From: Siphonodentalium dalli
Lineage: Eukaryota; Mollusca; Scaphopoda; Gadilida; Siphonodentaliidae
NCBI GenBank assembly: GCA_032622095.1
Contig: CP136062.1
Location: forward strand, 150,530,875-150,594,874
DNA: 64,000 nucleotides
Reading direction: 5' to 3'
Positions 1 to 58,935 of this stretch are shown in pieces. The position numbers and the translations under genes were made by a program. The first letter of the stretch is position 1. The number at the start of each line of letters is the position of its first letter. The notes under the pieces were generated by a model. The model was not told where the DNA came from. It searched no databases and saw nothing but the letters and a program-made list of their open reading frames with translations.

Positions 1-998
1 GCAATGACAAGTTGAGAAACTTGGATTGTTCACTTTTGATTACGAAACAACTTTTACTATAAAAAAAATCTGATGAAAGCAAGTTTCCGTGCATTTCACG
101 GAAACATGGAATTTCCCCACCCCCGCAATCGGTGAACGTCACAGACATGTTATAAAGGTCACGACATTGCCAACCGGACATGGATGTATAAAAGCCTCCT
201 TTGTCAAAGATTTCTTCATTTACAATGTCCTGAAAAACTATTCCACTTTGGAGCAATGACAAGTTGAGAAACTTGGATTGTTCACTTTTGATTACGAAAC
301 AACTTTTACTATAAAAAAAATCTGATGAATAAATGTTTGCGTGCATTTCACGGAAACTTGGAATTTACCCACCCCCGCAATCGATGAACGTCACAGACAA
401 GTTATAAAGGTCACGACATTGCCAACCGGACTTGGATGTATAAAAGACTCCTTTATCAAAGATTTCTTCATTTACAATGTCCTGAAAAACTATTCCACTT
501 TGGAGCAATGACAAGTTGAGAAACTTGGATTGTTCACTTTTGATTACGAAACAACTTTTACTATAAAAAAAATCTGATGAAAGCAAGTTTCCGTGCATTT
601 CACGGAAACATGGAATTTCCCCACCCCCGCAATCGGTGAACGTCACAGACATGTTATAAAGGTCACGACATTGCCAACCGGACTTGGATGCATAAAAGCC
701 TCCTCTGTCAAAGATTTCTTCATTTACAATGTCCTGAAAAACTATTCCACTTTGGAGCAATGACAAGTTGAGAAACTTGGATTGTTCACTTTTGATTACG
801 AAACAACTTTTACTATAAAAACAATCTGATGAAAGCAAGTTTCCGTGCATTTCACGGAAACTTGGAATTTCCCCGCCCCCGCAAATTTCTTCATTTAAAA
901 AACTACTTCACTTTGGAGCAATGACAAGTTGAGAAACTTGGATTGTTCACTTTTGATTACGAAATAACTTTTACTATACAAAAATCTGATTCCGTGCA
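1..998 (+). repeat. 252-bp satellite array, block 1 (about 4 monomers)
   Basis: Tandem copies of a 252-bp monomer: a hairpin with arms GTTTCCGTG and CACGGAAAC around loop CATTT begins at 83, 335 and 587, exactly 252 bp apart. Each monomer also holds the words AGGTCACGACATTG, GTATAAAAG and CAAGTTGAGAAACTTG. Two monomer classes differ just before the hairpin (CTGATGAATAAATG against CTGATGAAAGCAAG). From about 880 the last monomer is internally deleted and diverged; recognisable monomer sequence ends near 998, where the kinase module begins. No independent gene was seen here. Confidence 0.95.
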
Positions 999-1133
999 GG
1001 ACAAAACCATGAACTGCAAAAAAGGAAAAATTAACGGGGATTCCCCTTCCTTACAAACGACAGAACCAGTCCTTGTGAGTCTTGGAAATGTTTGTATATA
1101 AAATTTGGTTGAGAATTTTTTTAAAGAAAAAAT

Positions 1134-1943
1134 TTATTGTAACCACTTATGTTCGCGGATTTCTGAGAGGGTTATGCGTTTATTCACATCTGGTTCCAGA
1201 AGTCTCAATACTAAATCGACACAGTCATTCCCAACTTCGAGCGATTTTGGCAGCAGTGTTTCTCCGGGGGTTTGATTCTTCACAATTTTCTGGATATATG
1301 AGTTGCTGAATGGCATTCTTCCAAACACCAATGAGTACATAATTATGCCCAAGCTCCATATATCTGCCATAAATGGATCGTAGTTTTCGCCCCGTATTAT
1401 TTCAGGGGAAATATATGAAGAGCTCCCACAGAAAGTATTGCTCAATTCCTTCATGTTGGACATGCGCCTCGCAAAGCCAAAGTCGGTTATCTTTGCTTTG
1501 CCATTTAAGTCGAGCAGGATATTTTCCAATTTGAGATCTCGGTGCGCTATCTTCTGCTCATGCAGATTAACAACACCGTGAATAATTTGTTTGAATAATT
1601 GCTTTGCTTCGCCTTCGTTCATGGGGCCATTGTAAGTAATCTTGTCCAAGAGGTCACCTCCCCGAACCAGTTCCATGAAGATGTAAATATTTTCCTTCAG
1701 TTCGATAACATTATGCAGCTTGACAACGCTATCTGAACTAATGCTCGAGAGAACGTTTATTTCTCTCGGTAAGAACTTTTCTAGGAACTCGGGTGAAGCA
1801 TTCGTCTTATTGATTATTTTCACCGCCATTTCGACGGCTTTCTTTCCATTATTGTATACGCATTCTCGGATCTTGCCGAACGACCCTTCGCCCAGCTTTC
1901 GACCCAGAATGTATCCTTTTTTCGCAAGAAATGAATTTTCCAT
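1134..1943 (-). CDS. TSSK-like Ser/Thr protein kinase, copy 1 (269 aa, intronless)
   Basis: The product is a single protein-kinase domain that would transfer phosphate from ATP to Ser/Thr. Visible motifs are the glycine loop GEGSFGKI (18-25), the ATP-binding Lys K42, the helix-C Glu E61, the catalytic loop HRDLKLEN (134-141), DFG (154-156), T-loop TFCGS (170-174), SPE (179-181) and DIWSLG (194-199). The FLPRE, ELSNTFCGS and RLLEPD stretches and the short length without a C-terminal tail resemble testis-specific serine kinases (TSSK, CAMK group); TSSK genes are known for post-meiotic sperm expression, but expression here is inferred. The start is the first Met, just before the domain, 38 bp from a TATA-like box. 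This copy alone has D104Y and codon CGA for R26. Its stop overlaps AATAAA (1133-1138), absent from the other intact copies. It lies in a ~1.03-kb module (999-2032) inside the satellite. Confidence 0.86.
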   Translation of the reverse strand: MENSFLAKKGYILGRKLGEGSFGKIRECVYNNGKKAVEMAVKIINKTNASPEFLEKFLPREINVLSSISSDSVVKLHNVIELKENIYIFMELVRGGDLLDKITYNGPMNEGEAKQLFKQIIHGVVNLHEQKIAHRDLKLENILLDLNGKAKITDFGFARRMSNMKELSNTFCGSSSYISPEIIRGENYDPFMADIWSLGIIMYSLVFGRMPFSNSYIQKIVKNQTPGETLLPKSLEVGNDCVDLVLRLLEPDVNKRITLSEIREHKWLQ

Positions 1944-1980
1944 TTTTATTATAGAAAGTTTGAACTTTGTCCATTTCCTT

Positions 1981-1988
1981 TATTTATA
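1981..1988 (-). promoter_or_regulatory. TATA-like box upstream of kinase copy 1
   Basis: Reads TATAAATA on the minus strand, 38-45 bp before the kinase ATG. The same box sits at the same distance in the other uninterrupted copies (for example 9660-9667). With a start site about 30 bp downstream, the 5' leader would be only 10-20 nt. Functional use is inferred. Confidence 0.5.
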
Positions 1989-2032
1989 GATTTTTTTCCA
2001 AACGACCCGAGCATCGGAGCGTGACCCTTGTC

Positions 2033-5000
2033 ATAAAGGTCACGACATTGTCAACCGGACTTGGATGTATAAAAGCCTCCTTTATCAGAGATTTCTTCAT
2101 TTACAATGTCCTGAAAAACTATTCCACTTTGGAGCAATGACAAGTTGAGAAACTTGGATTGTTCATTTTTGATTACGAAACAACTTTTACTATAAAAAAA
2201 ATCTGATGAATAAATGTTTCCGTGAATTTCACGGAAACTTGGAATTTCCCCACCCCCCGCAATCGTGAACGTCACAGACATGTTATAAAGGTCACGACAT
2301 TGCCAACCGGACATGGATGTATAAAAGCCTCCTTTATCAAAGATTTCTTCATTTACAATGTCCTGAAAAACTATTCCACTTTGGAGCAATGACAAGTTGA
2401 GAAACTTGGATTGTTCACTTTTGATTACGAAACAACTTTTACTATAAAAAAAATCTGATGAATAAATGTTTCCGTGCATTTCACGGAAACTTGGAATTTA
2501 CCCACCCCCGCAATCGATGAACGTCACAGACAAGTTATAAAGGTCACGACATTGCCAACCGGACTTGGATGTATAAAAGCCTCCTTTATCAAAGATTTCT
2601 TCATTTACAATGTCCTGAAAACTATTCCACTTTGGAGCAATGACAAGTTGAGAAACTTGGATTGTTCACTTTTGATTACGAAACAACTTTTACTATAAAA
2701 AAAATCTGATGAAAGCAAGTTTCCGTGCATTTCACGGAAACATGGAATTTCCCCACCCACGCAATCGGTGAACGTCACAGACATGTTATAAAGGTCACGA
2801 CATTGCCAACCGGACATGGATGTATAAAAGCCTCCTTTATCAAAGATTTCTTCATTTACAATGTCCTGAAAAACTATTCCACTTTGGAGCAATGACAAGT
2901 TGAGAAACTTGGATTGTTCACTTTTGATCACGAAACAACTTTTACTATAAAAAAAATCTGATGAATAAATGTTTCCGTGAATTTCACGGAAACTTGGAAT
3001 TTCCCCACCCCCCGCAATCGGTGAACGTCACAGACATGTTATAAAGGTCACGACATTGCCAACCGGACATGGATGTATAAAAGCCTCCTTTATCAAAGAT
3101 TTCTTCATTTACAATGTCCTGAAAAACTATTCCACTTTGGAGCAATGACAAGTTGAGAAACTTGGATTGTTCACTTTTGATTACGAAACAACTTTTACTA
3201 TAAAAAAAATCTGATGAATAAATGTTTCCGTGCATTTCACGGAAACTTGGAATTTACCCACCCCCGCAATCGATGAACGTCACAGACAAGTTATAAAGGT
3301 CACGACATTGCCAACCGGACTTGGATGTATAAAAGCCTCCTTTATCAAAGATTTCATCATTTACAATGTCCTGCAAAACTATTCCACTTTGGAGCAATGA
3401 CAAGTTGAGAAACTTGGATTGTTCACTTTTGATTACGAAACAACTTTTACTATAAAAAAAATCTGATGAAAGCAAGTTTCCGTGCATTTCACGGAAACAT
3501 GGAATTTCCCCACCCCCGCAATCGGTGAACGTCACAGACATGTTATAAAGGTCACGACATTGCCAACCGGACATGGATGTATAAAAGCCTCCTTTGTCAA
3601 AGATTTCTTCATTTACAATGTCCTGAAAAACTATTCCACTTTGGAGCAATGACAAGTTGAGAAACTTGGATTGTTCACTTTTGATTACGAAACAACTTTT
3701 ACTATAAAAAAATCAGATGAATAAATGTTTCCGTGCATTTCACGGAAACTTGGAATTTACCCACCCCCCGCAATCGATGAACGTCACAGACAAGTTATAA
3801 AGGTCACGACATTGCCAACCGGACTTGGATGTATAAAAGACTCCTTTATCAAAGATTTCTTCATTTACAATGTCCTGAAAAACTATTCCACTTTGGAGCA
3901 ATGACAAGTTGAGAAACTTGGATTGTTCACTTTTGATTACGAAACAACTTTTACTATAAAAAAAATCTGATGAAAGCAAGTTTCCGTGCATTTCACGGAA
4001 ACATGGAATTTCCCCACCCCCGCAATCGGTGAACGTCACAGACATGTTATAAAGGTCACGACATTGCCAACCGGACTTGGATGCATAAAAGCCTCCTTTG
4101 TCAAAGATTTCTTCATTTACAATGTCCTGAAAAACTATTCCACTTTGGAGCAATGACAAGTTGAGAAACTTGGATTGTTCACTTTTGATTACGAAACAAC
4201 TTTTACTATAAAAACAATCTGATGAAAGCAAGTTTCCGTGCATTTCACGGAAACATGGAATTTCCCCACCCCCGCAATCGGTGAACGTCACAGACATGTT
4301 ATAAAGGTCACGACATTGCCAACCGGACATGGATGTATAAAAGCCTCCTTTATCAAAGATTTCTTCATTTACAATGTCCTGAAAAACTATTCCACTTTGG
4401 AGCAATGACAAGTTGAGAAACTTGGATTGTTCACTTTTGATCACGAAACAACTTTTACTATAAAAAAAATCTGATGAATAAATGTTTCCGTGAATTTCAC
4501 GGAAACTTGGAATTTCCCCACCCCCCGCAATCGGTGAACGTCACAGACATGTTATAAAGGTCACGACATTGCCAACCGGACATGGATGTATAAAAGCCTC
4601 CTTTATCAAAGATTTCTTCATTTACAATGTCCTGAAAAACTATTCCACTTTGGAGCAATGACAAGTTGAGAAACTTGGATTGTTCACTTTTGATTACGAA
4701 ACAACTTTTACTATAAAAAAAATCTGATGAATAAATGTTTCCGTGCATTTCACGGAAACTTGGAATTTACCCACCCCCGCAATCGATGAACGTCACAGAC
4801 AAGTTATAAAGGTCACGACATTGCCAACCGGACTTGGATGTATAAAAGCCTCCTTTATCAAAGATTTCATCATTTACAATGTCCTGCAAAACTATTCCAC
4901 TTTGGAGCAATGACAAGTTGAGAAACTTGGATTGTTCACTTTTGATTACGAAACAACTTTTACTATAAAAAAAATCTGATGAAAGCAAGTTTCCGTGCAT

Positions 5001-8000
5001 TTCACGGAAACATGGAATTTCCCCACCCCCGCAATCGGTGAACGTCACAGACATGTTATAAAGGTCACGACATTGCCAACCGGACATGGATGTATAAAAG
5101 CCTCCTTTGTCAAAGATTTCTTCATTTACAATGTCCTGAAAAACTATTCCACTTTGGAGCAATGACAAGTTGAGAAACTTGGATTGTTCACTTTTGATTA
5201 CGAAACAACTTTTACTATAAAAAAATCTGATGAATAAATGTTTCCGTGCATTTCACGGAAACTTGGAATTTACCCACCCCCCGCAATCGATGAACGTCAC
5301 AGACAAGTTATAAAGGTCACGACATTGCCAACCGGACTTGGATGTATAAAAGCCTCCTTTATCAAAGATTTCTTCATTTACAATGTCCTGAAAACTATTC
5401 CACTTTGGAGCAATGACAAGTTGAGAAACTTGGATTGTTCACTTTTGATTACGAAACAACTTTTACTATAAAAAAAATCTGATGAAAGCAAGTTTCCGTG
5501 CATTTCACGGAAACATGGAATTTCCCCACCCACGCAATCGGTGAACGTCACAGACATGTTATAAAGGTCACGACATTGCCAACCGGACATGGATGTATAA
5601 AAGCCTCCTTTATCAAAGATTTCTTCATTTACAATGTCCTGAAAAACTATTCCACTTTGGAGCAATGACAAGTTGAGAAACTTGGATTGTTCACTTTTGA
5701 TCACGAAACAACTTTTACTATAAAAAAAATCTGATGAATAAATGTTTCCGTGAATTTCACGGAAACTTGGAATTTCCCCACCCCCCGCAATCGGTGAACG
5801 TCACAGACATGTTATAAAGGTCACGACATTGCCAACCGGACATGGATGTATAAAAGCCTCCTTTATCAAAGATTTCTTCATTTACAATGTCCTGAAAAAC
5901 TATTCCACTTTGGAGCAATGACAAGTTGAGAAACTTGGATTGTTCACTTTTGATTACGAAACAACTTTTACTATAAAAAAAATCTGATGAATAAATGTTT
6001 CCGTGCATTTCACGGAAACTTGGAATTTACCCACCCCCGCAATCGATGAACGTCACAGACAAGTTATAAAGGTCACGACATTGCCAACCGGACTTGGATG
6101 TATAAAAGCCTCCTTTATCAAAGATTTCATCATTTACAATGTCCTGCAAAACTATTCCACTTTGGAGCAATGACAAGTTGAGAAACTTGGATTGTTCACT
6201 TTTGATTACGAAACAACTTTTACTATAAAAAAAATCTGATGAAAGCAAGTTTCCGTGCATTTCACGGAAACATGGAATTTCCCCACCCCCGCAATCGGTG
6301 AACGTCACAGACATGTTATAAAGGTCACGACATTGCCAACCGGACATGGATGTATAAAAGCCTCCTTTGTCAAAGATTTCTTCATTTACAATGTCCTGAA
6401 AAACTATTCCACTTTGGAGCAATGACAAGTTGAGAAACTTGGATTGTTCACTTTTGATTACGAAACAACTTTTACTATAAAAAAATCAGATGAATAAATG
6501 TTTCCGTGCATTTCACGGAAACTTGGAATTTACCCACCCCCCGCAATCGATGAACGTCACAGACAAGTTATAAAGGTCACGACATTGCCAACCGGACTTG
6601 GATGTATAAAAGACTCCTTTATCAAAGATTTCTTCATTTACAATGTCCTGAAAAACTATTCCACTTTGGAGCAATGACAAGTTGAGAAACTTGGATTGTT
6701 CACTTTTGATTACGAAACAACTTTTACTATAAAAAAAATCTGATGAAAGCAAGTTTCCGTGCATTTCACGGAAACATGGAATTTCCCCACCCCCGCAATC
6801 GGTGAACGTCACAGACATGTTATAAAGGTCACGACATTGCCAACCGGACTTGGATGCATAAAAGCCTCCTTTGTCAAAGATTTCTTCATTTACAATGTCC
6901 TGAAAAACTATTCCACTTTGGAGCAATGACAAGTTGAGAAACTTGGATTGTTCACTTTTGATTACGAAACAACTTTTACTATAAAAACAATCTGATGAAA
7001 GCAAGTTTCCGTGCATTTCACGGAAACATGGAATTTCCCCACCCCCGCAATCGGTGAACGTCACAGACATGTTATAAAGGTCACGACATTGCCAACCGGA
7101 CATGGATGTATAAAAGCCTCCTTTATCAAAGATTTCTTCATTTACAATGTCCTGAAAAACTATTCCACTTTGGAGCAATGACAAGTTGAGAAACTTGGAT
7201 TGTTCACTTTTGATCACGAAACAACTTTTACTATAAAAAAAATCTGATGAATAAATGTTTCCGTGAATTTCACGGAAACTTGGAATTTCCCCACCCCCCG
7301 CAATCGGTGAACGTCACAGACATGTTATAAAGGTCACGACATTGCCAACCGGACATGGATGTATAAAAGCCTCCTTTATCAAAGATTTCTTCATTTACAA
7401 TGTCCTGAAAAACTATTCCACTTTGGAGCAATGACAAGTTGAGAAACTTGGATTGTTCACTTTTGATTACGAAACAACTTTTACTATAAAAAAAATCTGA
7501 TGAATAAATGTTTCCGTGCATTTCACGGAAACTTGGAATTTACCCACCCCCGCAATCGATGAACGTCACAGACAAGTTATAAAGGTCACGACATTGCCAA
7601 CCGGACTTGGATGTATAAAAGCCTCCTTTATCAAAGATTTCATCATTTACAATGTCCTGCAAAACTATTCCACTTTGGAGCAATGACAAGTTGAGAAACT
7701 TGGATTGTTCACTTTTGATTACGAAACAACTTTTACTATAAAAAAAATCTGATGAAAGCAAGTTTCCGTGCATTTCACGGAAACATGGAATTTCCCCACC
7801 CCCGCAATCGGTGAACGTCACAGACATGTTATAAAGGTCACGACATTGCCAACCGGACATGGATGTATAAAAGCCTCCTTTGTCAAAGATTTCTTCATTT
7901 ACAATGTCCTGAAAAACTATTCCACTTTGGAGCAATGACAAGTTGAGAAACTTGGATTGTTCACTTTTGATTACGAAACAACTTTTACTATAAAAAAATC

Positions 8001-8677
8001 TGATGAATAAATGTTTCCGTGCATTTCACGGAAACTTGGAATTTACCCACCCCCCGCAATCGATGAACGTCACAGACAAGTTATAAAGGTCACGACATTG
8101 CCAACCGGACTTGGATGTATAAAAGACTCCTTTATCAAAGATTTCTTCATTTACAATGTCCTGAAAAACTATTCCACTTTGGAGCAATGACAAGTTGAGA
8201 AACTTGGATTGTTCACTTTTGATTACGAAACAACTTTTACTATAAAAAAAATCTGATGAAAGCAAGTTTCCGTGCATTTCACGGAAACATGGAATTTCCC
8301 CACCCCCGCAATCGGTGAACGTCACAGACATGTTATAAAGGTCACGACATTGCCAACCGGACTTGGATGCATAAAAGCCTCCTTTGTCAAAGATTTCTTC
8401 ATTTACAATGTCCTGAAAAACTATTCCACTTTGGAGCAATGACAAGTTGAGAAACTTGGATTGTTCACTTTTGATTACGAAACAACTTTTACTATAAAAA
8501 CAATCTGATGAAAGCAAGTTTCCGTGCATTTCACGGAAACTTGGAATTTCCCCGCCCCCGCAAATTTCTTCATTTAAAAAACTACTTCACTTTGGAGCAA
8601 TGACAAGTTGAGAAACTTGGATTGTTCACTTTTGATTACGAAATAACTTTTACTATACAAAAATCTGATTCCGTGCA
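2033..8677 (+). repeat. 252-bp satellite array, block 2 (about 26 monomers)
   Basis: Longest uninterrupted satellite stretch, equal in length to the block at 14366-21010. Within it, larger units recur at about 1,260 and 1,513 bp (5 and 6 monomers, with a 1-bp shift from C5/C6 run variation). Satellite resumes at ATAAAGGTCACGAC right after the kinase 5' flank. On the minus strand it contains open stretches of 80-234 codons that merely follow the 84-codon period. No other gene was seen. Confidence 0.95.
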
Positions 8678-8812
8678 GGACAAAACCATGAACTGCAAAA
8701 AAGGAAAAATTAACGGGGATTCCCCTTCCTTACAAACGACAGAACCAGTCCTTGTGAGTCTTGGAAATGTTTGTATATAAAATTTGGTTGAGAATTTTTT
8801 TAAAGAAAAAAA

Positions 8813-9622
8813 TTATTGTAACCACTTATGTTCGCGGATTTCTGAGAGGGTTATGCGTTTATTCACATCTGGTTCCAGAAGTCTCAATACTAAATCGACA
8901 CAGTCATTCCCAACTTCGAGCGATTTTGGCAGCAGTGTTTCTCCGGGGGTTTGATTCTTCACAATTTTCTGGATATATGAGTTGCTGAATGGCATTCTTC
9001 CAAACACCAATGAGTACATAATTATGCCCAAGCTCCATATATCTGCCATAAATGGATCGTAGTTTTCGCCCCGTATTATTTCAGGGGAAATATATGAAGA
9101 GCTCCCACAGAAAGTATTGCTCAATTCCTTCATGTTGGACATGCGCCTCGCAAAGCCAAAGTCGGTTATCTTTGCTTTGCCATTTAAGTCGAGCAGGATA
9201 TTTTCCAATTTGAGATCTCGATGCGCTATCTTCTGCTCATGCAGATTAACAACACCGTGAATAATTTGTTTGAATAATTGCTTTGCTTCGCCTTCGTTCA
9301 TGGGGCCATTGTCAGTAATCTTGTCCAAGAGGTCACCTCCCCGAACCAGTTCCATGAAGATGTAAATATTTTCCTTCAGTTCGATAACATTATGCAGCTT
9401 GACAACGCTATCTGAACTAATGCTCGAGAGAACGTTTATTTCTCTCGGTAAGAACTTTTCTAGGAACTCGGGTGAAGCATTCGTCTTATTGATTATTTTC
9501 ACCGCCATTTCGACGGCTTTCTTTCCATTATTGTATACGCATTCTCTGATCTTGCCGAACGACCCTTCGCCCAGCTTTCGACCCAGAATGTATCCTTTTT
9601 TCGCAAGAAATGAATTTTCCAT
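8813..9622 (-). CDS. TSSK-like kinase, copy 2 (269 aa)
   Basis: Consensus version of the array kinase with every catalytic motif intact (K42, E61, D136, DFG 154-156). It differs from copy 1 by D104 instead of Y, by AGA for R26 and by CAT for H134, the last two being silent. The sequence after the stop reads AATAAT rather than AATAAA, so any polyadenylation signal must lie further downstream. The TATA-like box at 9660-9667 is intact. It is one of the best candidates for a functional kinase gene in the array. Confidence 0.87.
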   Translation of the reverse strand: MENSFLAKKGYILGRKLGEGSFGKIRECVYNNGKKAVEMAVKIINKTNASPEFLEKFLPREINVLSSISSDSVVKLHNVIELKENIYIFMELVRGGDLLDKITDNGPMNEGEAKQLFKQIIHGVVNLHEQKIAHRDLKLENILLDLNGKAKITDFGFARRMSNMKELSNTFCGSSSYISPEIIRGENYDPFMADIWSLGIIMYSLVFGRMPFSNSYIQKIVKNQTPGETLLPKSLEVGNDCVDLVLRLLEPDVNKRITLSEIREHKWLQ

Positions 9623-9711
9623 TTTTATTATAGAAAGTTTGAACTTTGTCCATTTCCTTTATTTATAGATTTTTTTCCAAACGACCCGAGCATCGGAGCG
9701 TGACCCTTGTC

Positions 9712-12700: not shown

Positions 12701-13331
12701 CCACCCCCCGCAATCGATGAACGTCACAGACAAGTTATAAAGGTCACGACATTGCCAACCGGACTTGGATGTATAAAAGACTCCTTTATCAAAGATTTCT
12801 TCATTTACAATGTCCTGAAAAACTATTCCACTTTGGAGCAATGACAAGTTGAGAAACTTGGATTGTTCACTTTTGATTACGAAACAACTTTTACTATAAA
12901 AAAAATCTGATGAAAGCAAGTTTCCGTGCATTTCACGGAAACATGGAATTTCCCCACCCCCGCAATCGGTGAACGTCACAGACATGTTATAAAGGTCACG
13001 ACATTGCCAACCGGACTTGGATGCATAAAAGCCTCCTTTGTCAAAGATTTCTTCATTTACAATGTCCTGAAAAACTATTCCACTTTGGAGCAATGACAAG
13101 TTGAGAAACTTGGATTGTTCACTTTTGATTACGAAACAACTTTTACTATAAAAACAATCTGATGAAAGCAAGTTTCCGTGCATTTCACGGAAACTTGGAA
13201 TTTCCCCGCCCCCGCAAATTTCTTCATTTAAAAAACTACTTCACTTTGGAGCAATGACAAGTTGAGAAACTTGGATTGTTCACTTTTGATTACGAAATAA
13301 CTTTTACTATACAAAAATCTGATTCCGTGCA
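9712..13331 (+). repeat. 252-bp satellite array, block 3 (about 14 monomers)
   Basis: Same monomer and word order as the other blocks. Its right part matches the right part of block 2 at a 4,654-bp offset (compare 7270-8529 with 11924-13183). One monomer pair found in block 2 is absent near 11640, so the block is a shorter relative produced by unequal exchange. No other gene seen. Confidence 0.95.
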
Positions 13332-13466
13332 GGACAAAACCATGAACTGCAAAAAAGGAAAAATTAACGGGGATTCCCCTTCCTTACAAACGACAGAACC
13401 AGTCCTTGTGAGTCTTGGAAATGTTTGTATATAAAATTTGGTTGAGAATTTTTTTAAAGAAAAAAA

Positions 13467-35207: not shown

Positions 35208-35342
35208 GGACAAAACCATGAACTGCAAAAAATGAAAAATTAACGGGGATTCCCCTTCCATACAAACGACAGAACCAGTCCTTGTGAGTCTTGGAAATGT
35301 TTGTATATAAAATTTGGTTGAGAATTTTTTTAAAGAAAAAAA

Positions 35343-36152: not shown

Positions 36153-36241
36153 TTTTATTATAGAAAGTTTGAACTTTGTCCATTTCCTTTATTTATAGAT
36201 TTTATTCCAAACGACCCGAGCATCGGAGCGTGACCCTTGTC

Positions 36242-37562: not shown

Positions 37563-37697
37563 GGACAAAACCATGAACTGCAAAAAATGAAAAATTAACG
37601 GGGATTCCCCTTCCATACAAACGACAGAACCAGTCCTTGTGAGTCTTGGAAATGTTTGTATATAAAATTTGGTTGAGAATTTTTTTAAAGAAAAAAA

Positions 37698-38507
37698 TTA
37701 TTGTAACCACTTATGTTCGCGGATTTCAGAGAGGGTTATGCGTTTATTCACATCTGGTTCCAGAAGTCTCAATACTAAATCGACACAGTCATTCCCAACT
37801 TCGAGCGATTTTGGCAGCAGTGTTTCTCCGGGGGTTTGATTCTTCACAATTTTCTGGATATATGAGTTGCTGAATGGCATTCTTCCAAACACCAATGAGT
37901 ACATAATTATGCCCAAGCTCCATATATCTGCCATAAATGGGTCGTAGTTTTCGCCCCGTATTATTTCAGGGGAAATATATGAAGAGCTCCCACAGAAAGT
38001 ATTGCTCAATTCCTTCATGTTGGACATGCGCCTCGCAAAGCCAAAGTCGGTTATCTTTGCTTTGCCATTTAAGTCGAGCAGGATATTTTCCAATTTGAGA
38101 TATCGGTGCGCTATCTTCTGCTCATGCAGATTAACAACACCGTGAATAATTTGTTTGAATAATTGCTTTGCTTCGCCTTCGTTCATGGGGCCATTGTCAG
38201 TAATCTTGTCCAAGAGGTCACCTCCCCGAACCAGTTCCATGAAGATGTAAATATTTTCCTTCAGTTCGATAACATTATGCAGCTTGACAACGCTATCTGA
38301 ACTAATGCTCGAGAGAACGTTTATTTCTCTCGGTAAGAACTTTTCTAGGAACTCGGGTGAAGCATTCGTCTTATTGATTATTTTCACCGCCATTTCGACG
38401 GCTTTCTTTCCATTATTGTATACGCATTCTCTGATCTTGCCGAACGACCCTTCGCCCAGCTTTCGACCCAGAATGTATCCTTTTTTCGCAAGAAATGAAT
38501 TTTCCAT
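37698..38507 (-). pseudogene. TSSK-like kinase, copy 10: catalytic Asp lost, promoter split by insertion
   Basis: The catalytic loop reads HRYLKLEN: D136, the proton acceptor of the kinase fold, is Tyr (GAT to TAT), so phosphotransfer should be abolished. In addition a 646-bp short element (38518-39163) sits between the ATG and the TATA-like box (39194-39201). The frame happens to stay open 44 codons into the inserted element, but that extension is not kinase sequence; the homologous start is at 38507. All other motifs remain. It could only act as a pseudokinase, if it is expressed at all. Confidence 0.85.
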
Positions 38508-38517
38508 TTTTATTATA

Positions 38518-39163
38518 GGTGACACTCCACAGTTTCTGCAGGGATTGGTGCAAAAATAAGGGGGCATCAATTCAATGAAAAATAACAGAAATGTGATCCC
38601 ACAACACATATACAATGTATATATACCTGGGTTGAGCATATACTAGGCTTAAAGATTTTGGTACAGAATTGTCATTTTAGTGGGGGTAGCAAGAGTTATG
38701 CCCCTTGATTGTGTGCCTGAAAAATGAAATTTTGATGCAAAAATGACCAAAATAAGCGATTTTCAGGCTCGTGGGACACAAAAACCAGAAGATCTGTGGT
38801 ATAGCCGCCTATGTTGTCTGGAAGAACACTGTTTCCTCACAAAAATATCAAAAAATTTCAAACTTCTCACCACTGTAAGTTTAAAAAAAATATTTTTCAT
38901 GCAGATGACAAATTTTAGGTGCTAAAATGTCACGCTGGTGTCTGGAGCCACTGTTTCGCAGAAATCGCTACTACTTCATACTGGTGGGGTCAAGGTCACA
39001 TGAAACAATATTTTTCAAAACTCAAAGACATCCTCTAAAAATCCACAAATTCATAACTAACCTTCTCTCAATAAACATACCACACCCATGGTGACAGAAA
39101 ACACTGGTACTCTATTCTAAGAAATTTACCCCTACTGATAATTCGAAACTGTGGAGTGTCACC
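38518..39163 (+). mobile_element. Short GGTGACAC terminal-inverted-repeat element, subtype A, copy 1
   Basis: 646 bp bounded by GGTGACACTCCACAGTTTC and its inverted form GAAACTGTGGAGTGTCACC. Comparison with uninterrupted kinase copies (TTATTATAGAAAG) gives a clean filled site: TTATTATA, then the element, then ATAGAAAG. ATA is therefore duplicated at the target, if the element begins at GG. No transposase is encoded and the inner reading frames are short. It is a nonautonomous MITE-like element. Confidence 0.85.
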
Positions 39164-39193
39164 ATAGAAAGTTTGAACTTTGTCCATTTCCTT

Positions 39194-39201
39194 TATTTAT
39201 A
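39194..39201 (-). promoter_or_regulatory. Orphaned kinase TATA-like box beyond the insertion
   Basis: The TATAAATA of the kinase 5' flank, now separated from the copy-10 ATG by the 646-bp element. An identical orphan lies at 45844-45851 in the duplicate. Confidence 0.45.
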
Positions 39202-39245
39202 GATTTTATTCCAAACGACCCGTGCATCGGAGCGTGACCCTTGTC

Positions 39246-40601
39246 ATAAAGGTCACGACATTGTCAACCGGACTTGGATGTATAAAAGCCTCCTTTATCA
39301 GAGATTTCTTCATTTACAATGTCCTGAAAAACTATTCCACTTTGGAGCAATGACAAGTTGAGAAACTTGGATTGTTCACTTTTGATTACGAAACAACTTT
39401 TACTATAAAAAAAAATCTGATGAATAAATGTTTCCGTGCATTTCACGGAAACTTGGAATTTCCCCACCCCCGCAATCGGTGAACGTCACAGACATGTTAT
39501 AACGGTCACGACATTGCCAACCGGACATGGATGTATAAAAGCCTCCTTTATCAAAGATTTCTTCATTTACAATGTCCTGAAAAACTATTCGACTTTGGAG
39601 CAATGACAAGTTGAGAAACTTGGATTGTTCACTTTTGATTACGAAACAACTTTTACTATAAAAAAAAACTGATGAATAAATGTTTCCGTGCATTTCACGG
39701 AAACTTGGAATTTCCCCCCCCCCCCCCCCCGCAATCGATGAACGTCACAGACAAGTTATAAAGGTCACGACATTGCCAACCGGACTTGGATGTATAAAAG
39801 CCTCCTTTATCAAAGATTGGTTCATTTATAATGTCCTTAAAAAACTATTCCACTTTGGAGCAATGACAAGTTGAGAAACTTGGATTGTTCACTTTTGATT
39901 ACGAAACAACTTTTACTATAAAAAAAACAATCTGATGAAAGCAAGTTTCCGTTTATTTCACGGAAACTTGGAATTTCCCCACCCCCGCAATCGGTGAACG
40001 TCACAGACAAGTTATAAAGGTCACGACATTGCCAACCGGACTTGGATGTATAAAAGCCTCCTTTATCAAAGATTTCTTCATTTACAATGTCCTGAAAAAC
40101 TATTCCACTTTGGAGCAATGACAAGTTGAGAAACTTGGATTGTTCACTTTTGATTACGAAACAACTTTTACTATAAAAAAAAATCTGATGAATAAATGTT
40201 TCCGTGCATTTCACGGAAACTTGGAATTTCCCCACCCCCGCAATCGGTGAACGTCACAGACATGTTATAACGGTCACGACATTGCCAACCGGACATGGAT
40301 GTATAAAAGCCTCCTTTATCAAAGATTTCTTCATTTACAATGTCCTGAAAAACCATTCGACTTTGGAGCAATGACAAGTTGAGAAACTTGGATTGTTCAC
40401 TTTTGATTACGAAACAACTTTTACTATAAAAAAAAACGGATGAATTTGGAAGTTTCCGTGCATTTCACGGAAACTTGGAATTTACCCACCCCCGCAATCG
40501 ATGAACGTCACAGACAAGTTATAAAGGTCACGACATTGCCAACCGGACATGGATGTATAAAAGCCTCCTTTATCAAAGATTTCTTCATTTACAATGTCCT
40601 G
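39246..40601 (+). repeat. 252-bp satellite array, block 11 (about 5 monomers)
   Basis: Diverged monomers: TTATAACGGTCACG instead of TTATAAAGGTCACG, GATTGGTTCATTTATAATG near 39815, hairpin GTTTCCGTTTATTTCACGG near 39945, and a C run of about 17 near 39714-39730. It ends at a junction with truncated kinase copy 11. No other gene seen. Confidence 0.92.
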
Positions 40602-41173
40602 AATGGGTCGTAGTTTTCGCCCCGTATTATTTCAGGGGAAATATATGAAGAGCTCCCACAGAAAGTATTGCTCAATTCCTTCATGTTGGACATGCGCCTC
40701 GCAAAGCCAAAGTCGGTTATCTTTGCTTTGCCATTTAAGTCGAGCAGGATATTTTCCAATTTGAGATCTCGGTGCGCTATCTTCTGCTCATGCAGATTAA
40801 CAACACCGTGAATAATTTGTTTGAATAATTGCTTTGCTTCGCCTTCGTTCATGGGGCCATTGTCAGTAATCTTGTCCAAGAGGTCACCTCCCCGAACCAG
40901 TTCCATGAAGATGTAAATATTTTCCTTCAGTTCGATAACATTATGCAGCTTGACAACGCTATCTGAACTAATGCTCGAGAGAACGTTTATTTCTCTCGGT
41001 AAGAACTTTTCTAGGAACTCGGGTGAAGCATTGGTCTTATTGATTATTTTCACCGCCATTTCGACGGCTTTCTTTCCATTATTGTATACGCATTCTCTGA
41101 TCTTGCCGAACGACCCTTCGCCCAGCTTTCGACCCAGAATGTATCCTTTTTTCGCAAGAAATGAATTTTCCAT
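40589..41173 (-). pseudogene. TSSK-like kinase, copy 11, truncated after residue ~191
   Basis: Kinase sequence starts abruptly at about 40602. The frame runs from Met1 through YDPF and then three satellite-encoded residues (RTL) to a stop, 194 codons in all. The C-lobe after the SPE motif (DIWSLG to the end) is missing, so a folded active kinase is unlikely. The breakpoint joins satellite TCCTGAA to kinase AATGGGTCG with a few shared bases, as in a microhomology deletion. The 5' flank and TATA-like box are intact. T47 uses ACC, as in copy 8. Confidence 0.85.
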
Positions 41174-41262
41174 TTTTATTATAGAAAGTTTGAACTTTGT
41201 CCATTTCCTTTATTTATAGATTTTATTCCAAACGACCCGAGCATCGGAGCGTGACCCTTGTC

Positions 41263-41857
41263 ATAAAGGTCACGACATTGTCAACCGGACTTGGATGTAT
41301 AAAAGCCTCCTTTATCAGAGATTTCTTCATTTACAATGTCCTGAAAAACTATTCCACTTTGGAGCAATGACAAGTTGAGAAACTTGGATTGTTCACTTTT
41401 GATTACGAAACAACTTTTACTATAAAAAAAATCTGATGAATAAATGTTTTCGTGCATTTCACGGAAACTTGGAATTTACCCACCCCCGCAATCGATGAAC
41501 GTCACAGACAAGTTATAAAGGTCACGACATTGCCAACCGGACTTGGATGTATAAAAGCCTCCTTTATCAAAGATTTCTTCATTTACAATGTCCTGTAAAA
41601 CTATTCCACTTTGGAGCAATGACAAGTTGAGAAACTTGGATTGTTCACTTTTGATTACGAAACAACTTTTACTATAAAAACAATCTGATGAAAGCAAGTT
41701 TCCGTGCATTTCACGGAAACTTGGAATTTCCCCGCCCCCGCAAATTTCTTCATTTGAAAAACTATTTAACTTTGGAGCAATGACAAGTTGAGAAACTTGG
41801 ATTGTTCACTTTTGATTACGAAATAACTTTTACTATACAAAAATCTGATTCCGTGCA
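41263..41857 (+). repeat. 252-bp satellite array, block 12 (about 2 monomers)
   Basis: Short satellite spacer between the truncated copy 11 and copy 12, ending in the diverged monomer that always precedes a kinase module. No other gene seen. Confidence 0.92.
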
Positions 41858-41992
41858 GGACAAAACCATGAACTGCAAAAATTGAAAAATTAACGGGGAT
41901 TCCCCTTCCATACAAACGACAGAACCAGTCCTTGTGAGTCTTGGAAATGTTTGTATATAAAATTTGGTTGAGAATTTTTTTAAAGAAAAAAA

Positions 41993-42802
41993 TTATTGTA
42001 ACCACTTATGTTCGCGGATTTCAGAGAGGGTTATGCGTTTATTCACATCTGGTTCCAGAAGTCTCAATACTAAATCGACACAGTCATTCCCAACTTCGAG
42101 CGATTTTGGCAGCAGTGTTTCTCCGGGGGTTTGATTCTTCACAATTTTCTGGATATATGAGTTGCTGAATGGCATTCTTCCAAACACCAATGAGTACATA
42201 ATTATGCCCAAGCTCCATATATCTGCCATAAATGGGTCGTAGTTTTCGCCCCGTATTATTTCAGGGGAAATATATGAAGAGCTCCCACAGAAAGTATTGC
42301 TCAATTCCTTCATGTTGGACATGCGCCTCGCAAAGCCAAAGTCGGTTATCTTTGCTTTGCCATTTAAGTCGAGCAGGATATTTTCCAATTTGAGATCTCG
42401 GTGCGCTATCTTCTGCTCATGCAGATTAACAACACCGTGAATAATTTGTTTGAATAATTGCTTTGCTTCGCCTTCGTTCATGGGGCCATTGTCAGTAATC
42501 TTGTCCAAGAGGTCACCTCCCCGAACCAGTTCCATGAAGATGTAAATATTTTCCTTCAGTTCGATAACATTATGCAGCTTGACAACGCTATCTGAACTAA
42601 TGCTCGAGAGAACGTTTATTTCTCTCGGTAAGAACTTTTCTAGGAACTCGGGTGAAGCATTCGTCTTATTGATTATTTTCACCGCCATTTCGACGGCTTT
42701 CTTTCCATTATTGTATACGCATTCTCTGATCTTGCCGAACGACCCTTCGCCCAGCTTTCGACCCAGAATGTATCCTTTTTTCGCAAGAAATGAATTTTCC
42801 AT
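41993..42802 (-). CDS. TSSK-like kinase, copy 12 (269 aa)
   Basis: Full-length with all catalytic motifs. It lies 6,650 bp from copy 9 and carries the same silent markers (P190 CCC and the TLSEIR Ser codon TCT). The 5' flank and TATA-like box are intact. Confidence 0.86.
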   Translation of the reverse strand: MENSFLAKKGYILGRKLGEGSFGKIRECVYNNGKKAVEMAVKIINKTNASPEFLEKFLPREINVLSSISSDSVVKLHNVIELKENIYIFMELVRGGDLLDKITDNGPMNEGEAKQLFKQIIHGVVNLHEQKIAHRDLKLENILLDLNGKAKITDFGFARRMSNMKELSNTFCGSSSYISPEIIRGENYDPFMADIWSLGIIMYSLVFGRMPFSNSYIQKIVKNQTPGETLLPKSLEVGNDCVDLVLRLLEPDVNKRITLSEIREHKWLQ

Positions 42803-42891
42803 TTTTATTATAGAAAGTTTGAACTTTGTCCATTTCCTTTATTTATAGATTTTATTCCAAACGACCCGAGCATCGGAGCGTGACCCTTGTC

Positions 42892-44212
42892 ATAAAGGTC
42901 ACGACATTGTCAACCGGACTTGGATGTATAAAAGCCTCCTTTATCAGAGATTTCTTCATTTACAATGTCCTGAAAAACTATTCCACTTTGGAGCAATGAC
43001 AAGTTGAGAAACTTGGATTGTTCACTTTTGATTACGAAACAACTTTTACTATAAAAAAAAATCTGATGAAAGCAAGTTTCCGTGCATTTCACGGAAACTT
43101 GGAATTTCCCCACCCCCGCAATCGGTGAACGTCACAGACATGTTATAAAGGTCACGACATTGCCAACCGGACATGGATGTATAAAAGCCTCCTTTATCAA
43201 AGATTTCTTCATTTACAATGTCCTGAAAAACTATTCCACTTTGGAGCAATGACAAGTTGAGAAACTTGGATTGTTCACTTTTGATTACGAAACAACTTTT
43301 ACTATAAAAAAAATCTGATGAATAAATGTTTGCGTGCATTTCACGGAAACTTGGAATTTACCCACCCCCGCAATCGATAAACGTCACAGACAAGTTATAA
43401 AGGTCACAACATTGCCAACCGGACTTGGATGTATAAAAGCCTCCTGAAAAACTATTCCACTTTGGAGCAATGACAAGTTGAGAAACTTGGATTGTTCACT
43501 TTTGATTACGAAACAACTTTTACTATAAAAACAATCTGATGAAAGCAAGTTTCCGTGCATTTCACGGAAACTTGGAGTTTCCCCGCCCCCGCAATCGATG
43601 AACGTCACAGACAAGTTATAAAGGTCACGACATTGCCAACCGGACTTGGATGTATAAAAGCCTCCTTTATCAAAGATTTCTTCATTTACAATGTCCTGAA
43701 AAACTATTCCACTTTGGAGCAATGACAAGTTGAGAAACTTGGATTGTTCACTTTTGATTACGAAACAACTTTTACTATAACAAAAATCTGATGAATAAAT
43801 GTTTTCGTGCATTTCACGGAAACTTGGAATTTACCCACCCCCGCAATCGATGAACGTCACAGACAAGTTATAAAGGTCACGACATTGCCAACCGGACTTG
43901 GATGTATAAAAGCCTCCTTTATCAAAGATTTCTTCATTTACAATGTCCTGTAAAACTATTCCACTTTGGAGCAATGACAAGTTGAGAAACTTGGATTGTT
44001 CACTTTTGATTACGAAACAACTTTTACTATAAAAACAATCTGATGAAAGCAAGTTTCCGTGCATTTCACGGAAACTTGGAATTTCCCCGCCCCCGCAAAT
44101 TTCTTCATTTGAAAAACTATTTAACTTTGGAGCAATGACAAGTTGAGAAACTTGGATTGTTCACTTTTGATTACGAAATAACTTTTACTATACAAAAATA
44201 TGATTCCGTGCA
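42892..44212 (+). repeat. 252-bp satellite array, block 13 (about 5 monomers)
   Basis: Duplicate of block 10 at a 6,650-bp offset, including the shortened monomer near 43447. One private variant is ACTATAACAAAAATC near 43775. No other gene seen. Confidence 0.93.
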
Positions 44213-44347
44213 GGACAAAACCATGAACTGCAAAAAATGAAAAATTAACGGGGATTCCCCTTCCATACAAACGACAGAACCAGTCCTTGTGAGTCTTGGA
44301 AATGTTTGTATATAAAATTTGGTTGAGAATTTTTTTAAAGAAAAAAA

Positions 44348-45157
44348 TTATTGTAACCACTTATGTTCGCGGATTTCAGAGAGGGTTATGCGTTTATTCA
44401 CATCTGGTTCCAGAAGTCTCAATACTAAATCGACACAGTCATTCCCAACTTCGAGCGATTTTGGCAGCAGTGTTTCTCCGGGGGTTTGATTCTTCACAAT
44501 TTTCTGGATATATGAGTTGCTAAATGGCATTCTTCCAAACACCAATGAGTACATAATTATGCCCAAGCTCCATATATCTGCCATAAATGGGTCGTAGTTT
44601 TCGCCCCGTATTATTTCAGGGGAAATATATGAAGAGCTCCCACAGAAAGTATTGCTCAATTCCTTCATGTTGGACATGCGCCTCGCAAAGCCAAAGTCGG
44701 TTATCTTTGCTTTGCCATTTAAGTCGAGCAGGATATTTTCCAATTTGAGATATCGGTGCGCTATCTTCTGCTCATGCAGATTAACAACACCGTGAATAAT
44801 TTGTTTGAATAATTGCTTTGCTTCGCCTTCGTTCATGGGGCCATTGTCAGTAATCTTGTCCAAGAGGTCACCTCCCCGAACCAGTTCCATGAAGATGTAA
44901 ATATTTTCCTTCAGTTCGATAACATTATGCAGCTTGACAACGCTATCTGAACTAATGCTCGAGAGAACGTTTATTTCTCTCGGTAAGAACTTTTCTAGGA
45001 ACTCGGGTGAAGCATTCGTCTTATTGATTATTTTCACCGCCATTTCGACGGCTTTCTTTCCATTATTGTATACGCATTCTCTGATCTTGCCGAACGACCC
45101 TTCGCCCAGCTTTCGACCCAGAATGTATCCTTTTTTCGCAAGAAATGAATTTTCCAT
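44348..45157 (-). pseudogene. TSSK-like kinase, copy 13: catalytic Asp lost, promoter split by insertion
   Basis: Duplicate of copy 10, 6,650 bp away, with the same D136Y (HRYLKLEN) and the same element between ATG and TATA-like box. One later silent change is present (F212 TTC to TTT near 44522). Both lesions therefore predate the duplication, and the dead version was copied along with its neighbours. Confidence 0.85.
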
Positions 45158-45167
45158 TTTTATTATA

Positions 45168-45813
45168 GGTGACACTCCACAGTTTCTGCAGGGATTGGTG
45201 CAAAAATAAGGGGGCATCAATTCAATGAAAAATAACAGAAATGTGATCCCACAACACATATACAATGTATATATACCTGGGTTGAGCATATACTAGGCTT
45301 AAAGATTTTGGTACAGAATTGTCATTTTAATGGGGGTAGCAAGAGTTATGCCCCTTGATTGTGTGCCTGAAAAATGAAATTTTGATGCAAAAATGACCAA
45401 AATAAGCGATTTTCAGGCTCGTGGGACACAAAAACCAGAAGATCTGTGGTATAGCCGCCTATGTTGTCTGGAAGAACACTGTTTCCTCACAAAAATATCA
45501 AAAAATTTCAAACTTCTCACCACTGTAAGTTTAAAAAAAATATTTTTCATGCAGATGACAAATTTTAGGTGCTAAAATGTCACGCTGGTGTCTGGAGCCA
45601 CTGTTTCGCAGAAATCGCTACTACTTCATACTGGTGGGGTCAAGGTCACATGAAACAATATTTTTCAAAACTCAAAGACATCCTCTAAAAATCCACAAAT
45701 TCATAACTAACCTTCTCTCAATAAACATACCACACCCATGGTGACAGAAAACACTGGTACTCTATTCTAAGAAATTTACCCCTACTGATAATTCGAAACT
45801 GTGGAGTGTCACC
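45168..45813 (+). mobile_element. Short GGTGACAC element, subtype A, copy 2
   Basis: 646 bp, nearly identical to 38518-39163 and in the same flanking position (TTATTATA left, ATAGAAAG right). It was multiplied by the 6,650-bp duplication rather than by a new insertion. One visible difference is TTTTAATGGGGG for TTTTAGTGGGGG near 45329. Confidence 0.85.
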
Positions 45814-45895
45814 ATAGAAAGTTTGAACTTTGTCCATTTCCTTTATTTATAGATTTTATTCCAAACGACCCGTGCATCGGAGCGTGACCCTTGTC

Positions 45896-47247
45896 ATAAA
45901 GGTCACGACATTGTCAACCGGACTTGGATGTATAAAAGCCTCCTTTATCAGAGATTTCTTCATTTACAATGTCCTGAAAAACTATTCCACTTTGGAGCAA
46001 TGACAAGTTGAGAAACTTGGATTGTTCACTTTTGATTACGAAACAACTTTTACTATAAAAAAAAATCTGATGAATAAATGTTTCCGTGCATTTCACGGAA
46101 ACTTGGAATTTCCCCACCCCCGCAATCGGTGAACGTCACAGACATGTTATAACGGTCACGACATTGCCAACCGGACATGGATGTATAAAAGCCTCCTTTA
46201 TCAAAGATTTCTTCATTTACAATGTCCTGAAAAACTATTCGACTTTGGAGCAATGACAAGTTGAGAAACTTGGATTGTTCACTTTTGATTACGAAACAAC
46301 TTTTACTATAAAAAAAAAATGATGAATAAATGTTTCCGTGCATTTCACGGAAACTTGGAATTTCCCCCCCCCCCCCCGCAATCGATGAACGTCACAGACA
46401 AGTTATAAAGGTCACGACATTGCCAACCGGACTTGGATGTATAAAAGCCTCCTTTATCAAAGATTGGTTCATTTATAATGTCCTTAAAAAACTATTCCAC
46501 TTTGGAGCAATGACAAGTTGAGAAACTTGGATTGTTCACTTTTGATTACGAAACAACTTTTACTATAAAAAAACAATCTGATGAAAGCAAGTTTCCGTTT
46601 ATTTCACGGAAACTTGGAATTTCCCCACCCCCGCAATCGGTGAACGTCACAGACAAGTTATAAAGGTCACGACATTGCCAACCGGACTTGGATGTATAAA
46701 AGCCTCCTTTATCAAAGATTTCTTCATTTACAATGTCCTGAAAAACTATTCCACTTTGGAGCAATGACAAGTTGAGAAACTTGGATTGTTCACTTTTGAT
46801 TACGAAACAACTTTTACTATAAAAAAAAATCTGATGAATAAATGTTTCCGTGCATTTCACGGAAACTTGGAATTTCCCCACCCCCGCAATCGGTGAACGT
46901 CACAGACATGTTATAACGGTCACGACATTGCCAACCGGACATGGATGTATAAAAGCCTCCTTTATCAAAGATTTCTTCATTTACAATGTCCTGAAAAACC
47001 ATTCGACTTTGGAGCAATGACAAGTTGAGAAACTTGGATTGTTCACTTTTGATTACGAAACAACTTTTACTATAAAAAAAAACGGATGAATTTGGAAGTT
47101 TCCGTGCATTTCACGGAAACTTGGAATTTACCCACCCCCGCAATCGATGAACGTCACAGACAAGTTATAAAGGTCACGACATTGCCAACCGGACATGGAT
47201 GTATAAAAGCCTCCTTTATCAAAGATTTCTTCATTTACAATGTCCTG
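45896..47247 (+). repeat. 252-bp satellite array, block 14 (about 5 monomers)
   Basis: Duplicate of block 11. The C run near 46364-46377 is shorter than its partner at 39714-39730, which accounts for most of the change in offset from 6,650 to 6,646 bp. No other gene seen. Confidence 0.92.
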
Positions 47248-47819
47248 AATGGGTCGTAGTTTTCGCCCCGTATTATTTCAGGGGAAATATATGAAGAGCT
47301 CCCACAGAAAGTATTGCTCAATTCCTTCATGTTGGACATGCGCCTCGCAAAGCCAAAGTCGGTTATCTTTGCTTTGCCATTTAAGTCGAGCAGGATATTT
47401 TCCAATTTGAGATCTCGGTGCGCTATCTTCTGCTCATGCAGATTAACAACACCGTGAATAATTTGTTTGAATAATTGCTTTGCTTCGCCTTCGTTCATGG
47501 GGCCATTGTCAGTAATCTTGTCCAAGAGGTCACATCCCCGAACCAGTTCCATGAAGATGTAAATATTTTCCTTCAGTTCGATAACATTATGCAGCTTGAC
47601 AACGCTATCTGAACTAATGCTCGAGAGAACGTTTATTTCTCTCGGTAAGAACTTTTCTAGGAACTCGGGTGAAGCATTCGTCTTATTGATTATTTTCACC
47701 GCCATTTCGACGGCTTTCTTTCCATTATTGTATACGCATTCTCTGATCTTGCCGAACGACCCTTCGCCCAGCTTTCGACCCAGAATGTATCCTTTTTTCG
47801 CAAGAAATGAATTTTCCAT
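47235..47819 (-). pseudogene. TSSK-like kinase, copy 14, truncated and G96C
   Basis: Same truncation and satellite fusion as copy 11 (kinase sequence from about 47248; 194 codons ending RTL). It also carries Gly-to-Cys at residue 96 (ELVRGCDLL) and uses ACG for T47, unlike copy 11. The C-lobe is missing. Confidence 0.85.
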
Positions 47820-47908
47820 TTTTATTATAGAAAGTTTGAACTTTGTCCATTTCCTTTATTTATAGATTTTATTCCAAACGACCCGAGCATCGGAGCGTGA
47901 CCCTTGTC

Positions 47909-48450
47909 ATAAAGGTCACGACATTGTCAACCGGACTTGGATGTATAAAAGCCTCCTTTATCAGAGATTTCTTCATTTACAATGTCCTGAAAAACTATTC
48001 CACTTTGGAGCAATGACAAGTTGAGAAACTTGGATTGTTCACTTTTGATTACGAAACAACTTTTACTATAAAAAAAAATCTGATGAAAGCAAGTTTCCGT
48101 GCATTTCACGGAAACTTGGAATTTCCCCACCCCCGCAATCGGTGAACGTCACAGACATGTTATAAAGGTCACGACATTGCCAACCGGACATGGATGTATA
48201 AAAGCCTCCTTTATCAAAGATTTCTTCATTTACAATGTCCTGAAAAACTATTCCACTTTGGAGCAATGACAAGTTGAGAAACTTGGATTGTTCACTTTTG
48301 ATTACGAAACAACTTTTACTATAAAAAAAATCTGATGAATAAATGTTTGCGTGCATTTCACGGAAACTTGGAATTTACCCACCCCCGCAATCGATAAACG
48401 TCACAGACAAGTTATAAAGGTCACAACATTGCCAACCGGACTTGGATGTA
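47909..48450 (+). repeat. 252-bp satellite array, block 15 (about 2 monomers, array edge)
   Basis: Last monomers of the left array. The final monomer is cut at GGACTTGGATGTA, just before its TATAAAAG word, where a subtype-B short element begins. Confidence 0.92.
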
Positions 48451-50772: not shown

Positions 50773-50776
50773 TTAA

Positions 50777-58933: not shown

Positions 58934-58935
58934 AT

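Follow-up and report, generated by a model that had tools for sequence, protein, structure and literature searches.

We analysed a window of 64,000 nucleotides from the scaphopod mollusc Siphonodentalium dalli (NCBI GenBank assembly GCA_032622095.1, contig CP136062.1, positions 150,530,875 to 150,594,874 of the forward strand), in which copies of a protein kinase gene are interspersed in a 252-bp satellite. The main array occupies positions 1 to 48450; the left edge of the window lies inside it, and on the right an inverted-repeat element interrupts it at 48451. For locating the kinase copies, one 810-nt coding sequence (CDS; 8813-9622, minus strand) was used as BLASTN query against the whole window, which contains no N. 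This identified 13 full-length copies, all on the minus strand, and all matches were ungapped and 99.4-100% identical to the query. Positions 1 to 48450 hold 14 copies (12 full-length and two cut at nt 572), all on the minus strand, which is the number and orientation given in an earlier reading of this DNA (the original prediction). Outside this interval lie a full copy at 61084 and a 254-nt kinase piece, both again on the minus strand. The array and kinase features are as follows.

1-48450, minus strand: composite array of 252-bp satellite runs and 14 kinase modules in one orientation (Tandem Repeats Finder (TRF), BLASTN, self-comparison)
1134-1943, minus: kinase copy 1, 269 aa, D104Y
8813-9622, minus: kinase copy 2, 269 aa, CDS identical to copies 3 and 4
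13467-14276, minus: kinase copy 3, 269 aa
21146-21955, minus: kinase copy 4, 269 aa
24035-24844, minus: kinase copy 5, L268*, 267 aa
27429-28238, minus: kinase copy 6, L268*, 267 aa
30823-31632, minus: kinase copy 7, L268*, 267 aa
33461-34270, minus: kinase copy 8, 269 aa
35343-36152, minus: kinase copy 9, 269 aa
37698-38507, minus: kinase copy 10, HRY for HRD, 5' flank split off by an inverted-repeat element
40602-41173, minus: kinase copy 11, lacking its 3' part beyond nt 572, where it joins satellite
41993-42802, minus: kinase copy 12, 269 aa
44348-45157, minus: kinase copy 13, HRY for HRD, with an upstream element, in a duplicate (offset 6650 bp) of the block of copy 10
47248-47819, minus: kinase copy 14, 3'-truncated, G96C, in a duplicate of the block of copy 11
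52917-53170, minus: kinase fragment of 254 nt, joined to a short satellite piece (by eye), with inverted-repeat elements on both sides
59112-63158, minus: second satellite stretch with a full kinase copy (TRF)
61084-61893, minus: kinase copy 15 (the 13th full-length copy), 269 aa, E55V, K165E

The 13 full open reading frames (ORFs) have 267-269 codons, and the term 'intronless' used in the original prediction is true for the ORF. The L268* variant in 3 of the 13, which adjoin one another, shortens the protein by two residues. The glycine loop, AVK, HRD, DFG and SPE motifs have well-known roles in protein kinases. The GEGSFG, AVK, PRE, HRD, DFG and SPE motifs are all kept in 11 of the 13 full copies, and the features of an active kinase (glycine loop, AVK lysine, alpha-C Glu, HRD, DFG, SPE) are found together in the same fraction, in agreement with the earlier statement that most copies keep their catalytic residues. 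In the full copies at 37698 and 44348, HRY replaces HRD.

The protein matches the Pfam protein kinase domain (PF00069, 4.4e-68 for the copy at 8813). Its best match in PDB is TSSK6 (194.3 and 193.8 bits), followed by SIK3 (182.7) and MARK4 (180.5), so that TSSK6 leads SIK3 by 11 bits in the full-length search. With the N-lobe alone (residues 1-92), TSSK6 scored 51.7 bits and the next match, STK33, 40.4. No second TSSK was present among the 60 matches listed in either PDB search, so that within the TSSK family the comparison covers TSSK6. Identity to the kinase is 39.1% for TSSK6, 37.7% for MARK4 and 36.9% for SIK3. In the alignment, KFLPRE is common to the kinase and TSSK6, and SIK3 and MARK4 are one residue shorter there. 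A quartet tree joins the kinase with TSSK6 at 100, both on long branches; because SIK3 and MARK4 are close relatives (68% identical), this split is nearly forced and the tree is uninformative. TSSK-like, as originally proposed, is the best label for the predicted protein, supported but not proven: TSSK6 is the best match for the whole protein and for the N-lobe, but its identity is only 39%, against 38% for MARK4. A single-sequence structure prediction was unusable (mean predicted local distance difference test score 35.1, predicted template modelling score 0.21). Searching a viral contig collection for relatives gave 3 pattern matches and 0 confirmed, which says little for a eukaryotic gene.

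The satellite has a period of 252 bp (TRF). Monomers were delimited by anchors with two mismatches allowed, and the resulting 142 anchors define 141 intervals. Among these, 123 are monomers between 225 and 265 bp long, with exactly 252 bp in 85 cases, and most of the 18 other intervals contain kinase modules. The monomers are arranged head to tail at near-constant length and are homogenised, with 47 distinct sequences among 123 monomers and repeated strings of monomers. Between neighbouring kinase modules there are 2 to 26 monomer anchors; the spacing is thus irregular, and the variable satellite runs of the original prediction are confirmed. The monomer contains a palindrome with 9-bp arms that is exact in 103 places, and the motif TATAAAAG occurs in most monomers, 129 times on the plus strand and 2 times on the minus strand. 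The TATA-like motif GTATAAAAGCC was seen 113 times on the plus strand of satellite monomers, opposite to the kinase.

The 252-bp consensus can be read around its whole length without a stop codon in one minus-strand frame (84 codons); among 5000 shuffles, 66 have an open frame. Protein coding by the satellite was rejected, as there is no excess of silent variants in this frame (normalised ratio 0.94; 0.93-1.30 in the five other frames). The satellite ORF at 28794-29531 exceeds the Pfam cut-off for BRICHOS (29.2 against 25 bits, E 1.1e-06) and remains below it for four other families, the best being IPU_b_solenoid (28.1 against 30.2); no single stretch of the ORF passes for BRICHOS or for the four others. 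We read these scores as a sum of weak matches across near-identical repeats and do not count BRICHOS as a domain. A hammerhead ribozyme in the monomer, suggested by a CTGATGA motif, was also rejected, with 0 Rfam matches at E<=1 on both strands of the 64 kb. An exact search with a 27-base piece of the monomer gave 0 matches in prokaryote and virus contigs, a result of little weight given the make-up of these collections.

Each kinase copy belongs to a module that joins the satellite at fixed points. A representative module and its neighbouring monomer piece are given below.

8679-9711, minus: kinase module of ~1.03 kb, ends estimated from comparison with the monomer
8564-8678, minus: shortened monomer piece on the 3' side of the module, carrying ATTCCGTGCAG

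Read on the minus strand, the module comprises ~89 bp of 5' flank with CTATAAATAAAGG, the 810-nt CDS and ~134 bp of 3' flank. The entry mark ATTCCGTGCAG occurs 13 times, once for each full copy, and a monomer starting with ATAAAGGTCACGAC comes after each of the 13, so the fixed module boundaries within the monomer described in the original prediction hold throughout. The spacing between flanking ATAAAGGTCACGAC marks is 1377 bp in 10 of the 13 full units, 2026 bp in two (those with a 646-bp insertion) and 1350 bp in one. A 1377-bp unit consists of 229 bp of normal monomer, a shortened piece of 106 bp (87% over 117 columns), a stretch of ~1.03 kb with no extended similarity to the satellite, and normal monomer. 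By eye, the module replaces ~54-77 bp of a monomer and is not a clean insertion. A recent simple retro-insertion into the satellite is not supported: the junctions show neither target duplication nor poly(A) tail (by eye), and part of a monomer is replaced. The gene itself may be of older retro-origin.

The TATA-like CTATAAATAAAGG lies ~45 nt 5' of the ATG, with 15 occurrences on the minus strand, one for every full (13) or truncated (2) copy, and 0 on the plus strand; CTATAAATA is the 5'-flank sequence next to the gene in copies without an upstream element. Downstream, AGTAAA, a weaker poly(A) signal, is found at 161 nt in all 13 full copies, inside the shortened monomer piece, and the satellite may provide the 3' end of the transcript.

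Kinase and satellite were duplicated together. Self-comparison reveals three pairs of blocks that contain both.

1-11452 and 12334-23785: 11,456 bp, 99.56%
22042-29817 and 25436-33211: 7,777 bp, 99.54%
34609-41743 and 41259-48390: 7,136 bp, 99.51%

The string of monomers between copies 1 and 2 equals that between copies 3 and 4 in order and sequence, and 7,967 bp are exactly identical at an offset of 12,333. Because of this long mismatch-free repeat, misassembly is possible for part of the array, and a few real copies could in principle have been multiplied by misassembly of a repetitive locus, a reading that the three identical CDS copies would also fit. Scattered variants nevertheless separate the blocks, with 43 mismatches in 11.4 kb and 30 in 7.1 kb, and argue against wholesale duplication by the assembler. 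The 13 full copies moreover fall into nine different CDS sequences, separated by no more than 6 of 810 nt, and are further subdivided by the element insertion and the truncations. We therefore consider an assembly artefact improbable as the source of the array.

Variants cluster by neighbourhood: besides L268* in three adjacent copies, 402T is shared by three and 567C by six right-hand copies, two of them truncated. At sites 141 and 567 all four combinations are found among copies (one only in the truncated copy at 40602), which suggests inter-copy exchange or recurrent change. Around the 11 element-free copies, satellite diversity is 0.5-1.5% in the nearest stretches on each side, ~2.1-2.2% in the next and 5.9-9.2% in the farthest, the last value being partly due to the alignment of different monomers. 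Recurrent junctions, blocks of up to 11.4 kb at 99.6% and variants shared between neighbours bear out the proposal that the kinase was amplified as part of the satellite. Shared junctions, co-duplicated blocks and neighbour-shared variants also fit a single capture followed by unequal exchange, and one capture of a compact intronless TSSK-like gene, then amplified with the satellite, is in our judgement the probable history of the array. More specifically, a compact kinase gene, accompanied by a short 5' flank of its own, would have lodged once in a 252-bp array, replacing part of one monomer. Unequal exchange and segmental duplication would then have expanded and homogenised the satellite and taken the gene along. 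Transcription would start from the TATA-like site upstream of the ATG, the product may act in the germline as a multi-copy, dose-variable kinase, and function would be lost in copies with an element insertion, a truncation or loss of HRD.

The insertions in the array belong to a family of elements of 646-648 bp with perfect 19-bp inverted ends (GGTGACACTCCACAGTTTC), eight copies of which were seen in the window.

38518-39163, strand not assigned: 646-bp element ending in 19-bp terminal inverted repeats GGTGACACTCCACAGTTTC, flanked by an ATA target duplication and separating the ATG of copy 10 from its TATA-like site
45168-45813, strand not assigned: 646-bp inverted-repeat element upstream of copy 13
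48451-49097: element of the same family
50777-51423: element of the same family
52266-52912: element of the same family
53187-53834: element of the same family
58286-58933: element of the same family
63170-63815: element of the same family

The first two elements sit 10 bp upstream of the ATG in the copies at 37698 and 44348, with an ATA duplication at the insertion, parting the ATG from the TATA-like site; the two full copies that lack HRD are the same two that carry an upstream element. The truncated copies at 40602 and 47248, both of which run into satellite, belong to the block duplicated at offset 6650 bp, as do these two full copies. Where copy 11 breaks off into satellite, the shared microhomology is limited to AA and so is uninformative. 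Identity is ~68-74% between sequence groups of the element family and up to 99.9% within them, and an exact search with a 29-base element piece gave 0 matches in the same prokaryote and virus contigs, again with little weight.

Pieces of satellite and kinase are also found outside the main array, at 52917 and ~58937-63158, and the whole might be imagined as cargo of a Helentron/HINE-like or other transposon. The monomer palindrome would suit such an origin, and Helentrons in oyster carry repeats similar to satellite DNA (PMC7492417). However, no replication or helicase domain was found among the six ORFs scanned with Pfam (the window has 65 ORFs of at least 100 aa, and those beyond the six look like satellite or kinase by eye), no outer ends or target duplication were seen around module or array in the window, and the visible array edges meet inverted-repeat elements. 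A transposon origin is in our view improbable, although these findings would be compatible with a non-autonomous form, and capture of the gene by the satellite remains the reading that we prefer.

The satellite edges at ~48450, 58934 and 63169 all abut inverted-repeat elements, and at 58934-59112 a short inverted satellite piece meets the normally oriented array at ~59112 (by eye). Inside 53187-58933, a 4.4-kb stretch between two direct element copies that are 99.85% identical contains a Mutator-like transposase ORF of 635 aa (54358-56265, plus strand) and a homing-endonuclease zinc-loop ORF (57266-57676, minus strand), both assigned with Pfam. Three copies of a ~840-bp sequence starting with AAGGGGAATGCAATTTCA are found among the elements at 49098-52267, two of them head to tail at 99.4%, and a fourth, partial and inverted, at the window end (63816-64000).

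With the truncated copies included, the kinase carries 13 distinct coding variants: 7 silent, 5 missense and 1 nonsense. The expectation for silent variants was obtained by placing the observed base changes at randomly chosen positions. Against this expectation, silent variants are in excess (7 of 13 observed, 3.26 expected, P=0.0147), and the excess persists after dropping three variants unique to disabled copies (6 of 10, P=0.011). Among the 11 full copies without an element, 10 of 810 CDS sites are variable compared with 23 of 819 in module flanks plus adjacent monomers (P=0.033). These results provide weak to moderate evidence for constraint on the CDS and weakly suggest selection on the kinase protein up to or during amplification.

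A number of observations weigh against the preferred reading of a captured and functional gene. The silent-variant test is based on 13 changes and was picked after viewing them. In the same 11 copies, comparison of the CDS (10/810) with the module flanks and the shortened monomer only (9/338) is not significant (P=0.12), and five missense variants and one nonsense variant persist. The association of HRY with an upstream element counts as one duplicated lineage and not as two independent cases, because both copies lie in the duplicated block at offset 6650 bp. AATAAA or ATTAAA is absent from the 1.5 kb downstream of 8 of the 13 full copies (~1.1 kb was searched for copy 1), and in the other five the first occurs only at 768-1494 nt. 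Expression and function of the kinase are predicted from sequence, and the evidence comes from part of one locus. Alternatively, the kinase could be a dead passenger, a retrocopy or pseudogene swept along by a recent expansion of the satellite, with too little time since then to decay. With no more than 6 of 810 nt differing between full CDS copies, little time would have elapsed, and the eight copies without a canonical poly(A) signal in the stretch searched, the non-significant flank comparison and the damaged copies (two truncated, two HRY, three L268*) all agree with this explanation. The excess of silent variants, the 0 gaps in the 13 full-length CDS alignments and the 11 copies in which all motifs checked are intact argue the other way. 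We regard a dead passenger as rather unlikely, and as the most serious competitor to a single capture of a TSSK-like gene amplified with its satellite.

Stellate of Drosophila melanogaster is related to the beta subunit of casein kinase 2. Its gene, active in spermatocytes, forms tandem units of 1.15-1.26 kb, and the euchromatic cluster ranges from 1 to ~198 copies in three strains (PMC12400953). The array described here resembles it in having short tandem gene units, with the large copy-number variation being known for Stellate (PMC12400953). It differs in that a catalytic kinase is encoded, that satellite monomers intervene and that the sequence alone, from which the array is known, revealed no suppressor locus, small RNA, sex linkage or drive. 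By analogy, a germline conflict could be envisaged in which the dose of the minus-strand kinase affects sperm development, the plus-strand TATAAAAG gives rise to antisense transcripts and, through them, to small RNAs against the kinase, and satellite length tunes both driver and suppressor; we hold this to be very improbable.

Genes in tandem repeats have precedents. The human macrosatellites RS447 (deubiquitinase) and D4Z4 (DUX4) hold an ORF in each unit, and testis is one of the tissues that express the TAF11-Like and PRR20 arrays (PMC3018141). The likeness to such protein-coding macrosatellites is an intact ORF that recurs with the tandem unit. In those, however, the multi-kilobase unit is itself the monomer, while here a gene module is interspersed irregularly in a short-monomer satellite, with 2 to 26 monomer anchors between modules in place of one gene per regular multi-kilobase unit. 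In molluscs, intronless TSSK-like genes are described alongside multi-exon ones (PMC6905558), and in oyster the number of TSSKs is similar to that of its four MARKs (PMC4883820). The kinase resembles the TSSK family through its match to TSSK6, the shared KFLPRE and the existence of intronless molluscan members (PMC6905558); apart from the 39% identity, it differs from TSSK6 in reading HRDLKLEN where TSSK6 has HRDLKCEN and in being satellite-borne. Satellite DNA in oyster likewise forms short tandem arrays mixed with mobile elements (PMC7492417, PMC8268682), with monomers of 160-180 bp predominating (PMC8268682). The main text of that oyster satellitome study contains no instance of 'kinase', 'protein-coding' or '252', and the available part of PMC13041921 contains no matching case. 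No report of a TSSK in a satellite was found in the open-licence literature searched, which covered titles and the starts of abstracts; two papers mention both TSSK and satellite DNA but deal with other subjects, judging by their titles. The suggestion that a protein-coding gene in a satellite is unusual stands for the irregular architecture and is qualified by coding macrosatellites and molluscan intronless TSSK-like genes, which precede it (PMC3018141, PMC6905558). Gene-bearing repeat arrays are already known; what sets this one apart is that the gene module recurs at uneven intervals among short monomers.

Satellite DNA is generally taken to be non-coding. An intact and possibly constrained kinase ORF as a component of the array would link satellite turnover to gene dose, maybe in a germline pathway. 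In such an array, nature would provide a test case for the effects of unequal exchange, gene conversion and selection on coding and non-coding parts alike.

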